DNA of 35,357 bases from assembly GCA_021298155.1 (NCBI GenBank), contig JAJTEN010000022.1, forward strand, positions 1 through 35,357. The letters are read 5' to 3'. This DNA comes from Sphingobacteriales bacterium. GTDB taxonomy: Bacteria; Bacteroidota; Bacteroidia; UKL13-3. Below, in pieces: positions 4,136 to 8,348 of this stretch. The notes beneath the pieces were generated by a model, which saw only the letters and a list, made by a program, of their open reading frames with translations, was not told where the DNA came from and searched no databases. The position numbers and the translations under genes are program-made. The first letter of the stretch is position 1, and each line of letters opens with the position of its first letter.

Positions 4136-5731
4136 TTATGGAAGTGTAATCTCTCCTTTGGTAACTTTATCTGCCAATATTAAGGCCTCATAGGCATTAA
4201 CAATTGCGCCAGTAATAGAAATATCGCTAAGACGTGCTTTATTTTTTGTACCCGGAATCAAAATTTTCTCATTACACGGCACTGCGCTTTTTAGCAATAT
4301 CTGCTTGGTTTGAGCAGCTGTTAAATTGGGATAATTTTGGCGAACCAATGCAGCAACACCAGCAACTACTGGAGATGCCATACTGGTACCATCAAAATCT
4401 TTATACAAGCTTCCCGGTACAGTTGAATGAATGGCTACACCCGGCGCAAAAACATCTACCTCATTTTTACCATAATTAGAGAAGCTTGCAACCCGCCCCT
4501 TTTTACCTTTTTTATATCCAGAAGCACCAACCTCAATCCAGTTTGGCACTGAAGTGGTAGTCCCAATAAATTTAGGTGAAGGGAAAAACTTGTTTTGTGC
4601 TAAATTTTCAGATTCATTGCCTGCTGCATGAACCAATAACACATCCTTACTTAAGGCATAAGCAACAGCCTCATCAACCACTTGCTTATTTGGTGATAGC
4701 TTCTTACCAAAACTCATATTAATTACCTTTGCACCATGGTCAACAGCATACCTAATTGCATTCGCAATATCTTTGTCTCGCTCATCACCATTTGGCACCA
4801 CACGCAATGTCATAATTCGCGCCTCTCCGCATATCCCTTTTATACCCGTATTATTGGTTCTGTCTGCCGCAATAATTCCAGCCACATGGGTTCCATGATC
4901 TGTGTTTGGCGCATCAACCTGGTTGTTGCCATAAAATCGCTCATTCACATTTGCATAATTATCGCCTACTAAATTCCTTGGATCAAACTCCATATTTAAG
5001 TTAAACTCAACCATGGTTTTTAGTTGCTTCTCTGCTTCACTAAATTGTTGCATAACAGGAGACTTTTCTAAACCACCAGTTTTAACAATGTATTTAGCAA
5101 TCATTAAAATTCGTTTATCTTGCTTTTCTGTAACCTTAATCTCATTCATCTGCGCTATTGTTGGATTCTTGCTACCTGTTCTTTCAATCATTTTTTCTAC
5201 CATAGAAACAATGGTTTTAAACTGCTGGTATTGGCCATTTAACTCGCTAAAGTTTTTATCATACAAATCGCGGGCTGTTAAATACATTTCTCTTTCATCA
5301 TCATTTTTAAAGTTTGGTAATTCACCCTCTTTTAAGCCCAGACCTTTGTATGCCGCTAATACCCTCACATATTCATAGGTGTCTTCTGACACATTTCCAG
5401 CAGAACCACCAATAAAATTCCATCCATGTACATCATCAACATAGCCATTTTTATCGTCGTCTATGCCATTACCAGGAACTTCTTTTTCATTAACCCATAA
5501 AATACTTTTCAAATCTTCATGTTGAACATCTGTTCCCGCATCAATAACTGCAACAATAATTTTCTCTTTATTCTTAGCAATTGGCAACTCTTTGTAAGCA
5601 CGCTCTGTACTTACTCCCCAAACTTTATCTTGCTTTACATCTAAATTAAACCAATTTTCTGGTGCAGCTTTTTGTGCAAATAATTGAAAAGAAGTGACTA
5701 GCGCTGTGGCTAAAACTGTTAAAATTCTCAT
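4136..5731 (-). CDS. Subtilisin-like serine protease (S8 family), exported
   Basis: The 531-residue protein starts with a Sec signal peptide ending near Ala19-Gln20. The S8 catalytic triad is present: Asp64 (VIDAGTDVQHEDL), His279 (DHGTHVAGI) and Ser450 (DGTSMASPVVAG). The oxyanion Asn372 is in AAGNESEN. Asp64 and His279 are more than 200 residues apart because a charged, mostly helical insertion occupies about residues 117-275; in classical subtilisins this distance is a few tens of residues. There is no obvious pro-domain (about 35 residues separate the signal peptide from the catalytic fold) and no C-terminal type-IX sorting domain. It is probably periplasmic or surface-associated. It is monocistronic, convergent with acn and divergent from the small membrane protein and symporter. 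The substrate is unknown. Confidence 0.93.
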   Translation of the reverse strand: MRILTVLATALVTSFQLFAQKAAPENWFNLDVKQDKVWGVSTERAYKELPIAKNKEKIIVAVIDAGTDVQHEDLKSILWVNEKEVPGNGIDDDKNGYVDDVHGWNFIGGSAGNVSEDTYEYVRVLAAYKGLGLKEGELPNFKNDDEREMYLTARDLYDKNFSELNGQYQQFKTIVSMVEKMIERTGSKNPTIAQMNEIKVTEKQDKRILMIAKYIVKTGGLEKSPVMQQFSEAEKQLKTMVEFNLNMEFDPRNLVGDNYANVNERFYGNNQVDAPNTDHGTHVAGIIAADRTNNTGIKGICGEARIMTLRVVPNGDERDKDIANAIRYAVDHGAKVINMSFGKKLSPNKQVVDEAVAYALSKDVLLVHAAGNESENLAQNKFFPSPKFIGTTTSVPNWIEVGASGYKKGKKGRVASFSNYGKNEVDVFAPGVAIHSTVPGSLYKDFDGTSMASPVVAGVAALVRQNYPNLTAAQTKQILLKSAVPCNEKILIPGTKNKARLSDISITGAIVNAYEALILADKVTKGEITLP

Positions 5732-5758
5732 TTGTTAGGTTAGTTTTATTAGGGCAAT

Positions 5759-5766
5759 TATATTTG
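5759..5766 (+). promoter_or_regulatory. -7 promoter element for the small membrane protein/symporter operon
   Basis: TATATTTG matches TAnnTTTG exactly and lies 32 bases upstream of the ATG at 5799. This would start transcription just before the 43-aa ORF, so the ORF would be the first gene of the message. No TTTG is found at the ideal spacing; one at 5731-5734 is 24 bases away. Confidence 0.4.
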
Positions 5767-5798: not shown

Positions 5799-5930
5799 AT
5801 GGTAGAAATTGATGATAAACAGCCCATTTTACCCAAACCAGATTCGTTTCAAAGAATTTATTGGCTGCTCATTGCATTTTTAATCGCTCAAATTATCATT
5901 TATTACCTTTTAAGCATACAATTAAAATGA
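5799..5930 (+). CDS. 43-aa single-helix membrane protein, coupled to the symporter
   Basis: The ATG at 5799 opens a 43-residue ORF whose TGA (5928-5930) overlaps the symporter ATG (5927-5929) in an ATGA arrangement, typical of translational coupling. The N-terminal 19 residues are polar and acidic with prolines (MVEIDDKQPILPKPDSFQR). A strongly hydrophobic stretch follows at about residues 21-40 (start IYWLLIAFLIAQ), then a short tail ending in Lys. The predicted form is one transmembrane helix. I know no name for it. Small helper membrane proteins encoded just before SSS transporters are known in other bacteria (for example YhdT with PanF), so an accessory role is plausible but inferred. It is easily missed because of its size. 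Confidence 0.72.
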   Translation: MVEIDDKQPILPKPDSFQRIYWLLIAFLIAQIIIYYLLSIQLK

Positions 5931-7609
5931 GCGCATTAGATTGGTTTGTACTCATTTTTTCTTTGGTTGGAATCGCTGCATATGGCATATATAAAAGTAG
6001 AGGCGCCACCAACATCGAAAATTATTTGAAAGGCGACCGAAGTATTCCTTGGTATATGGTTGGCCTTTCTATTATGGCAACGCAAGCCAGTGCCATCACT
6101 TTTTTATCGGCACCCGGACAAGCCTACACAGATGGAATGCGCTTTGTGCAGTATTATTTTGGACTCCCAATTGCGATGATCGTGATTAGCATGTTCTTTA
6201 TCCCTATCTATAACAAATTAAATGTTTTTACTGCCTATGAGTTTTTAGAAAAAAGATTTGATCAGAAAACTAGGGTTTTTACTTCGGTACTTTTTTTAAC
6301 CCAAAGGGGGTTGGCTTCTGGACTCACCCTATACGCTCCTAGCTTAATATTATCTGCCCTATTGGGTTGGAATATTTACTATACCAATATATTTATTGGA
6401 GGCATTGTTATTCTCTATACCGTTGCCGGCGGTTCTAAAGCAGTTAGCTACACCCATTTGCAACAAATGACCATTATTTTTATTGGAATGTTTATCGCAG
6501 CCTACATGATTGTTCATTTGTTACCTCCTGAAATTGGATTTACAGATGCCATAAAAATGGGAGGCAAATTGGGTAAAATGAATATAATAGATCTAAACTT
6601 CGACCTCAACAATAAATATACAATTTGGAGTGGATTAATTGGTGGTTTTTTCTTAGCCTTATCGTATTTTGGAACAGACCAATCTCAGGTTTCTAGATAT
6701 ATTAGTGCCAAAGATTTAAAACAAAGCAGAATGGGACTCCTAATGAATGGGTTTATTAAGGTTCCCATGCAATTTTTCATCTTATTGATTGGTGTATTAC
6801 TCTTCGTTTTTTATCAATTTAAACCTGCTCCATTATTCTTTAACAACAATGAAACACAAAAATTAGAGGCCAGCAAATACGCATCAGACTGGCTTAAAAT
6901 TAAAACAGCAGATGAAGCCTTGCAAGCGGGTTGCCAGAAGGCAGCCTTCGGTCTGAACCAAAGCATACAAGCAGGCGATGAATGGGCAATAAGCAAACAT
7001 CAAGCGTATTTGGTTCAAACAGAAAAAGAAAGATTGGTTCTTAAAAAACAAGCCACCGATTTAATGTTACGCAACGATCCTAAAGCAGAAACCAATGATA
7101 CCAATTATATCTTTTTAAGATATGTAATTGATTACCTGCCGCACGGACTTATTGGCTTATTAATTGCCGTAATTTTTGCGGCCTCTATGCAAAGTAAATC
7201 TGCCGAACTTAATGCCTTAGCTTCTTGCAGCATTGTAGACATATACCAACGTAGTTTTAAAAAGGATGCCAGCAACGAACATTATTTAAAAGCATCTAAA
7301 TGGACTACCGCTTTATGGGGCATTTATGCCATTGGAGTGGCCATGTTTGCGAATAAATTAGGCAGTTTAATTGAGGCGGTAAATGTACTTGGTTCTCTTT
7401 TTTATGGAACCATTTTGGGTATATTTTTAGTCGCATTTATGTTTAAAAACATTGTGGGCGCAAGCGCATTTTATGCAGCTATAATTACCGAACTAGTAGT
7501 TTTAGCGATGTATTTCTTTACTGATATCAGCTTTCTTTGGTTCAACCTATTTGGCAGTGTTTTGGTTGTTATTCTCAGTTTTATTTTTCAATGGGTTAAA
7601 CCAAAATAA
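5927..7609 (+). CDS. Sodium:solute symporter (SSS family)
   Basis: The 560-residue inner-membrane transporter belongs to the SSS (SLC5-like) family. Evidence is the multiple hydrophobic helices, the early segment RSIPWYMVGLSIMATQASAITF typical of the family's Na+/substrate-site region (about residues 40-60), and the later GTDQSQVSRYISAKD segment. A long hydrophilic loop of roughly 110 residues (about residues 295-405, rich in Lys, Gln and Ala) separates the helices around VLLFVFYQF from YVIDYLPHGLIGLL. This loop is longer than in most members. The ATG at 5927 is preferred to the in-frame TTG at 5861 because the family N-terminus (hydrophobic helix after MSALDW) begins there and because of the overlap with the small ORF. 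The 3' end overlaps the convergent comB gene by 22 bases. The substrate cannot be told from sequence. Confidence 0.93.
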   Translation: MSALDWFVLIFSLVGIAAYGIYKSRGATNIENYLKGDRSIPWYMVGLSIMATQASAITFLSAPGQAYTDGMRFVQYYFGLPIAMIVISMFFIPIYNKLNVFTAYEFLEKRFDQKTRVFTSVLFLTQRGLASGLTLYAPSLILSALLGWNIYYTNIFIGGIVILYTVAGGSKAVSYTHLQQMTIIFIGMFIAAYMIVHLLPPEIGFTDAIKMGGKLGKMNIIDLNFDLNNKYTIWSGLIGGFFLALSYFGTDQSQVSRYISAKDLKQSRMGLLMNGFIKVPMQFFILLIGVLLFVFYQFKPAPLFFNNNETQKLEASKYASDWLKIKTADEALQAGCQKAAFGLNQSIQAGDEWAISKHQAYLVQTEKERLVLKKQATDLMLRNDPKAETNDTNYIFLRYVIDYLPHGLIGLLIAVIFAASMQSKSAELNALASCSIVDIYQRSFKKDASNEHYLKASKWTTALWGIYAIGVAMFANKLGSLIEAVNVLGSLFYGTILGIFLVAFMFKNIVGASAFYAAIITELVVLAMYFFTDISFLWFNLFGSVLVVILSFIFQWVKPK

Positions 7610-8316
7610 TTAACAATATACTCTCCATCCATCTCTGGTACAAAGGAGTAAAGATCTTGTTGTAGGCAAAAAGACACATCATCTGTTTGAACATGTAACA
7701 AGGTAAATCTTTTTGCATGTGAACTCTTCCGAACAATTTCTTCTATATTGTTTTGGTATTGTAAAAATAAACAATGGGCAGACAATGCAGCGTCATCTTC
7801 TATTTCAAAATGAGCCAACAATTTATCTATGAGCGCACCTCCAAATAATGTATCTTCTAAATTATATTTATCCTTCCATCCAGCACACAATAAAACCAAA
7901 TCTTTATCTAATGTTATAATGTGGTTTGCTAGTGCTGTGATATTTAAAAAAGATCCAATCAAAATTTTATAGGGCTCCATCGCTTTAGCCATTTTAATTG
8001 CCTTGGTTCCGTTGGTTGTGGTAAAAGCAATATTTTTACCTGCTAAGAAAGGGTTTTCATATTCAAATGGCGAATTACCCATATCAAATCCAGGAACCTT
8101 CACTGCATTGCGTTCAGCCGCAATAATAAAATCAAAGTCTTTAAACATCTTACATTCATCTGGAGAGGCAATAGGCAAGATTTTATTTACCCCAGTATGA
8201 AAAGCAACACACATCGTGGAAGTGGCTCTCAAAATATCTATCACTACTACTGTTTTACCTTGTAAATTATACCAAGGTAATAAAGCCGGAGAATGTATAA
8301 GCTCTATTTTTTTCAT
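7588..8316 (-). CDS. comB: 2-phosphosulfolactate phosphatase family protein (ComB-like)
   Basis: The 242-residue protein has the ComB family motifs: VVIDILRATST near residue 25, GNSPFEY near residue 80, TTNGTKA near residue 100, and LCAGWK...LEDTLFGGAL near residues 140-160. In methanogens ComB dephosphorylates 2-phosphosulfolactate during coenzyme M synthesis. Bacteroidota do not make coenzyme M, so the substrate here is uncertain. The start is the ATG at 8316; the TTG at 8322 lies inside the T-run of a terminator and is unlikely. The gene is downstream of gcvT on the same strand but separated by that terminator. It overlaps the symporter 3' end. Confidence 0.85.
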   Translation of the reverse strand: MKKIELIHSPALLPWYNLQGKTVVVIDILRATSTMCVAFHTGVNKILPIASPDECKMFKDFDFIIAAERNAVKVPGFDMGNSPFEYENPFLAGKNIAFTTTNGTKAIKMAKAMEPYKILIGSFLNITALANHIITLDKDLVLLCAGWKDKYNLEDTLFGGALIDKLLAHFEIEDDAALSAHCLFLQYQNNIEEIVRKSSHAKRFTLLHVQTDDVSFCLQQDLYSFVPEMDGEYIVNYFGLTH

Positions 8317-8320
8317 ATAC

Positions 8321-8348
8321 AAAAAAAGTGCAAGCTTTCACTTGCACT
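8321..8348 (-). terminator. Intrinsic terminator after gcvT, just before comB
   Basis: On the minus strand AGTGCAAG (8341-8348), loop TGAAAG and CTTGCACT (8327-8334) form an 8-bp stem followed by seven Ts (8321-8327, the first overlapping the stem). It lies between the gcvT stop (8365) and the comB ATG (8316). comB therefore depends on read-through, or on a promoter inside or before the hairpin. Confidence 0.8.

Follow-up and report, generated by a model that had tools for sequence, protein, structure and literature searches.

A conserved one-helix membrane protein gene that travels with SSS symporters in many Bacteroidota

The human SGLT proteins, which are drug targets, have bacterial relatives in the SSS symporters. 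Some of these symporters are encoded beside small membrane subunits with two helices (DUF4212/TIGR03647, DUF485/YjcH and DUF997/YhdT); the protein described here resembles these in its position beside an SSS symporter gene but has one helix rather than two. For the human SGLT2, passages of PMC10803289 describe a single-helix partner, MAP17 (PDZK1IP1), that touches TM13 of the symporter mainly through its extracellular half and whose absence lowers thermal stability; how MAP17 supports SGLT2 is still an open question in the sections of PMC12605011 and PMC10803289 that we drew on. Small single-helix proteins that act on transporters also include AcrZ, MgtS, MgtR and SgrT (excerpts of PMC10710835), although these act on transporter families other than SSS, and those excerpts give no example of a one-helix partner of an SSS symporter.

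We analyzed a 35,357-nt stretch of DNA (the window), which is one contig of a Bacteroidota genome of 2.5 Mb, in which a 43-aa ORF runs directly into the gene of an SSS symporter (Table 1).

The small gene and the symporter that follows it

The small protein (MVEIDDKQPILPKPDSFQRIYWLLIAFLIAQIIIYYLLSIQLK, 43 aa) has an acidic N-terminus with prolines, followed by a single hydrophobic stretch, and its stop codon (TGA, 5928-5930) and the start codon of the symporter (ATG, 5927-5929) overlap in an ATGA, all as described in an earlier, sequence-only reading of the window. The -7 promoter element that this reading had placed 32 nt upstream is also there: TATATTTG lies exactly 32 nt from the start codon of the small ORF, inside the 67-nt gap to a divergent S8 peptidase gene that is a neighbor only, and it fits TAnnTTTG, the Bacteroidota -7 promoter consensus. 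In every one of the 19 loci that represent the window's genus and its nearest relative, TAnnTTTG occurs in the 90 nt ahead of the small ORF, whereas mononucleotide shuffling of these upstream stretches gives it in 10%; TATATTTG occurs in 18 of these loci, and L042 carries TATTTTTG. The -33 half of the promoter is weak, with TTTG at 5731-5734, 24 nt from the -7 element.

The downstream gene encodes a member of the SSS family, with scores above the cut-offs of both profiles (PF00474, E 3.5e-38, 132 bits against a cut-off of 22.8; TIGR00813, E 2.3e-71, 241 bits against 184) and a LeuT-type fold. On its AlphaFold2 model (pLDDT 80.4, pTM 0.76) we counted 13 membrane helices, and Foldseek placed SiaT closest (5nva, E 1.7e-17, TM-score 0.74/0.87), with SMCT1, NIS and SGLT1/2 as the next matches; by sequence, the closest solved proteins are SiaT, the multivitamin transporter, SMCT1, NIS and vSGLT. 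The model has helices at residues 307-314, 319-349 and 352-383 in the region of a helical hairpin inserted between helices 8 and 9, and both this insert and the EL3-type loop would be periplasmic. At its 3' end, the symporter gene meets a PF04029 2-phosphosulpholactate phosphatase family gene (7588-8322, minus strand) tail to tail, the two overlapping over the last 22 nt of the symporter gene.

Table 1. Coordinates of the small gene, its symporter neighbor and associated features in the window
Feature	Coordinates	Strand	Basis
TATATTTG, Bacteroidota-type -7 promoter element (TAnnTTTG)	5759..5766	+	Seen; recurs in 19/19 close loci
43-aa one-helix membrane protein ORF	5799..5930	+	Read in the window sequence; conserved in relatives
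Tyr21 codon, kept tyrosine at helix start	5859..5861	+	Kept in 109/109
Membrane helix with one conserved face	5859..5924	+	Conservation moment
ATGA overlap, small-ORF stop and symporter start	5927..5930	+	Seen; same junction in 106/120 distinct loci
SSS sodium:solute symporter, 560 aa	5927..7609	+	PF00474, TIGR00813, AlphaFold2 model, Foldseek
EL3-type loop, symporter residues 198-232, after sixth helix	6518..6622	+	Covariation
Symporter M218 codon	6578..6580	+	Suggestive covariation with end of small helix
Symporter I220 codon	6584..6586	+	Suggestive covariation with end of small helix
Helical hairpin, symporter residues 307-383, between helices 8 and 9	6845..7075	+	AlphaFold2
S8 peptidase gene, divergent neighbor only	4136..5731	-	PF00082, E 1.3e-52; start codons 67 nt apart

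The small protein of the window matched no Pfam or NCBIfam family. When 109 members from related loci were searched, Pfam returned weak matches to 39 families, with at most 6 of the 109 members per family and a best E value of 3.4e-4 (ABC2_membrane_2) among the 25 families listed, and NCBIfam returned 25 weak families, with at most 8 members in any one and a best E value of 0.018. We took these scattered matches as hydrophobic look-alikes. Membership in DUF4212, DUF485 or DUF997 was rejected, as none of the three was matched by the 109 members at E <= 0.1 among all 25 NCBIfam families and the 25 of 39 Pfam families listed. A profile of the small protein run against PDB chains picked up only hemocyanin pieces up to E 10, with no MAP17, and among the titles and abstracts listed by searches of an open-access library none describes the small ORF or the gene pair.

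Occurrence, linkage and the choice of partner

To a family set of 64 genomes (symporter in 34 at E <= 1e-60; 30 loci taken), we added 25 class-level loci and 80 named loci, the latter including Chitinophaga, Larkinella, Fluviicola, Flavihumibacter and Arachidicoccus; dropping 15 of the resulting 135 loci for duplicate symporter starts left 120. A one-helix ORF is present at the symporter start in 109 of these 120 distinct loci and overlaps it as ATGA in 106 (107 if the start in L156 is placed two codons earlier), the loci not being independent because Chitinophaga is over-represented. The sequence-only reading had looked to close relatives for a decision, naming conservation of the ATGA junction as support and a missing or frameshifted ORF as refutation; the 19 loci fetched for the window's genus and the relative nearest to it all have an intact small ORF ending in ATGA, with identity to the window protein ranging from 84% down to 19%. 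One further genome of the same genus (G003, 84% complete) gave no symporter match, and no small ORF of this kind adjoins the start of the other SSS gene in the window genome.

Eleven of the 120 loci have no nearby ORF. In one of them the small gene lies one gene further upstream (L055), in another it lies about 94 nt upstream of the symporter (L071), and a third is the pair of genome G142, apparently split by contig ends (L074); no small ORF was found in the other eight, of which L058 has only 184 nt of upstream sequence and L130, L136 and L152 were checked at the locus only. The symporters at the 11 loci are 565-581 residues long with C-terminal tails of 17-29, compared with a median tail of 23 in the 109 loci having the small ORF, and none of them showed an extra C-terminal helix. 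As symporters that lack it have normal length, the small ORF is dispensable in some lineages.

As a control, we looked for overlapping small hydrophobic ORFs at 204 other long ORFs of the window and the 80 named loci, finding 7, all of which look by eye like one coherent other gene pair that is apparently real. That the ORF arose by chance and has no function, as its shortness and lack of a known family match might suggest, is refuted by this control together with the 109/120 conservation and by the linkage in 118 of 121 genomes, the dN/dS values and the helix-face conservation described below, and we give it next to no credence.

A different one-helix ORF overlaps the start of a gene whose product begins MN(T/S).(E/L)..I.GT..M in L105, L109, L111, L114, L118, L134 and L149 (-). 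This uncatalogued small membrane gene of Chitinophaga and relatives lies, in L104, near a LuxR-type response regulator gene and a DUF2911 gene; at a guess, the pair may be a sensor kinase pair.

To follow the small gene through whole genomes, we used a profile that is blind to the symporter, built from the 109 small proteins, on 395 genomes of the class (E <= 0.01). The profile found the small gene in 181 genomes, and the symporter was found in 202. Linkage was counted on the matches listed, which cover 149 and 150 genomes with 121 common to both lists: in 118 of these 121, the small gene immediately precedes the symporter in the same orientation, at gaps of -1 to 193 nt. One of the three exceptions is G142, where the pair again looks split by contig ends. 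In the other two, G168 and G257, which belong to one genus (L212, L213), the small gene comes after a PIG-L gene, and the symporter is found on a different contig, with no such small ORF within 400 nt upstream of it; these are the only clear unlinked cases among the 121 genomes listed and are a real exception to symporter linkage. Conversely, 29 genomes have the symporter but no small gene among the matches listed, and inspection of 20 of them revealed a diverged one-helix ORF in 14 and, in one (L250), a one-helix ORF that forms the last part of a longer frame; the other five have no small ORF upstream of the symporter.

When the search was run at phylum level, 119 of 395 genomes gave a match, 35 of which belong to other classes, and a symporter was found downstream by BLAST at 18 of 20 loci fetched from other classes. 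At L278 (G463), an intact small ORF overlaps a broken symporter gene of which only the start and end are left, and at L274 (G686) the symporter reads as two frames, each case reflecting a broken gene or an assembly error; at L291, no symporter was seen at the locus. Among the matches listed from the class and phylum searches, we saw no natural fusion of small protein and symporter; one 753-aa open frame (G201:C34, E 2e-4) is among the profile matches. Two points of the sequence-only reading are modified by these results: the coupling overlap is real and widely kept but not essential, given gaps of up to 193 nt and the two unlinked genomes, and the ORF stands upstream of orthologous symporters across the class and in other classes but is missing from some relatives that have the symporter. 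Together, these results demonstrate that the small ORF is a real gene travelling with the symporter in many Bacteroidota, a conserved gene of about 40 codons that occurs over several classes of a phylum and has no Pfam or NCBIfam model.

In many relatives (L103 and L104, for example) the gene order is PIG-L deacetylase, small gene, symporter, which raises the question of whether the small protein might belong to the deacetylase, for instance as its membrane link. A C-terminal PIG-L motif lies just upstream in 61 of 120 loci, a motif count that is too low as it misses cases such as L103; Pfam confirms PIG-L in both full-length upstream proteins tested (L103, L104), and two upstream fragments have a ThuA-like C-terminal part that falls below the Pfam cut-off. 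The two unlinked genomes keep the small gene with PIG-L and not with the symporter. However, the 19 loci of the window's genus and nearest relative showed no PIG-L motif upstream. In the window genome, an 846-aa PIG-L gene that shares the C-terminal motif sits on contig C16 (L253:1384-3924) ahead of a gene that looks like der, and the small ORF has remained beside the symporter. This separation and the adjacency kept in 118 of 121 listed genomes point to the symporter as the partner and make the deacetylase a highly improbable one. The PIG-L neighbor suggests, for its part, that the symporter substrate could be an amino sugar or a deacetylation product.

Selection, the conserved helix face and covariation

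The low dN/dS that the sequence-only reading had asked for was observed: of 35 usable pairs, 34 have a ratio under 1, and the median is about 0.2. These 35 are the pairs, out of 5886, that passed a filter for usable synonymous distance, and they share members. The lone pair above 1 (1.39) differs by very few changes. Between the window and its four nearest relatives, pS is 0.62-0.87, which is near saturation, and pN is 0.11-0.28.

Most family members are 31-50 aa long. Of 246 sequences, 245 retain the tyrosine that opens the helix (109/109, and 136/137 in an additional set of 140 loci, 137 of which yielded a pair); this tyrosine is followed by exactly 22 residues in 109 of 109 sequences and preceded, four residues earlier, by Trp or Phe in 105. 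Conservation then recurs along one face, at Y+0, 3, 7, 11, 14, 18 and 21 (Y21, L24, L28, I32, Y35, S39 and L42 in the window). The conservation moment is largest at 100 degrees; 0 of 20000 permutations reach its observed value, and 1 of 20000 does so without the tyrosine. Smaller sets of 56 and 21 sequences gave the same helical pattern. A helix that meets only lipid is not expected to show one-sided conservation with a 100-degree period.

The same features bear on whether the peptide matters at all, given that the ORF could be a translated leader that only feeds ribosomes to the symporter start, its peptide having no role. The ATGA junction in 106 of 120 loci would suit such a leader, as would the synonymous codons, of which in 12 chosen pairs the small ORF retains a larger share (309/387) than the first 45 codons (321/451) or the rest (3712/5549) of the symporter, so that an RNA-level signal may exist too. 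A leader does not account for purifying selection on the protein, the kept tyrosine, the fixed length after it or the helical conservation pattern, and the gene persists across gaps of up to 193 nt (54 nt in L153), with an ORF in between (L055) and unlinked in two genomes. We therefore consider a leader without a working peptide highly improbable.

Lys and Arg average 2.1 in the 12 columns before the tyrosine versus 0.8 in the last six residues, an excess that favors an N-in/C-out topology, although this argument is weakened by the frequency of Lys/Arg at Y+19 (65/109). Judged by charges and length, the small protein is probably oriented N-in/C-out.

To look for contacts between the two proteins, we ran covariation analyses on 109 and later 244 pairs (148 effective sequences). 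In both runs, the top mutual-information link joined Y+17 of the small protein to symporter residue 218. With the 244 pairs, this link lay above the maximum of each of 150 within-clade shuffles, whichever of two clustering levels was used, and Y+18/220 came second at the tighter level. An uncorrected co-change test on the tree, with p values that are small but inflated by long branches, ranked Y+18/220 fourth and Y+17/218 89th; with correction for branch rates, Y+18/220 ranked first (p 3e-4) and Y+17/218 32nd (p 0.004), no single pair being significant after correction for 12194 tests. In the branch-rate corrected test, the EL3 loop had the top observed/expected ratio (1.15) for the C-terminal third of the helix, and the periplasmic side of an EL3-type loop fits the N-in/C-out topology favored above. 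These signals are only suggestive of an outer end of the small helix near the EL3 loop.

Proposed role and comparison with known systems

We propose that the small ORF probably encodes a dedicated single-pass subunit of the Bacteroidota 13-helix SSS symporters with a SiaT/SGLT-like fold. The small ORF would be read just ahead of the symporter, and the ATGA would let terminating ribosomes restart on the symporter gene. The short N-terminus would stay in the cytoplasm, the helix would cross the membrane once and the chain, from its charges and length, would end just within the periplasm. One face of the helix would pack on the symporter, its outer end perhaps near the EL3 loop, as the covariation hints. 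A stabilizing or regulatory role, which the sequence-only reading had drawn from analogous small partners, is suggested here by a linkage that outlives changes of neighbor and by the one-sided conserved face.

If the role were regulatory, the small protein could inhibit the symporter or steer its turnover, like MgtR, MgtS and SgrT. Excerpts of PMC10710835 describe one-helix proteins of similar size doing so for other transporters, but production from the same message and in fixed order with the symporter would suggest steady pairing over condition-dependent control, and we regard such a regulator as unlikely. A scaffold helix is most likely, ahead of a switchable inhibitor: as a dedicated subunit, the small protein would be a fixed helix that helps the symporter to fold, persist and cycle, as MAP17 does for SGLT2.

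More tentatively, and with appreciable doubt, the small protein could be a phylum-wide, independently evolved counterpart of MAP17, or a fourteenth helix supplied in trans, which binds near the EL3 loop, is needed for the folding and cycling of the symporter and acts downstream of PIG-L when a deacetylated amino sugar or a related product is taken up. The in-trans idea draws on SGLT-type relatives, which have a fourteenth helix built in that would run in the same in-to-out direction. With 13 helices counted on its model, the window symporter would have no counterpart of SGLT2 TM13.

The pair is small, bacterial and available in hundreds of natural versions; with its distinct conserved helix face and existing operon, it would open to direct testing how one added helix supports this fold. 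In MAP17, as proposed here, a single helix pairs with a symporter of the SSS fold (SLC5; human SGLT2 and SGLT1), and SGLT2-MAP17 structures are among the best fold matches of the window symporter model. By contrast, the window pair is bacterial and coupled through ATGA, and the small protein has no sequence match to MAP17 PDB chains, in a comparison to which a single helix contributes little. The best reading is that the small protein would work like MAP17 while being unrelated to it. As a one-helix, ATGA-coupled partner of SSS symporters that occurs in several classes and has no family model, it appears to be a new variant among the known transporter partners.
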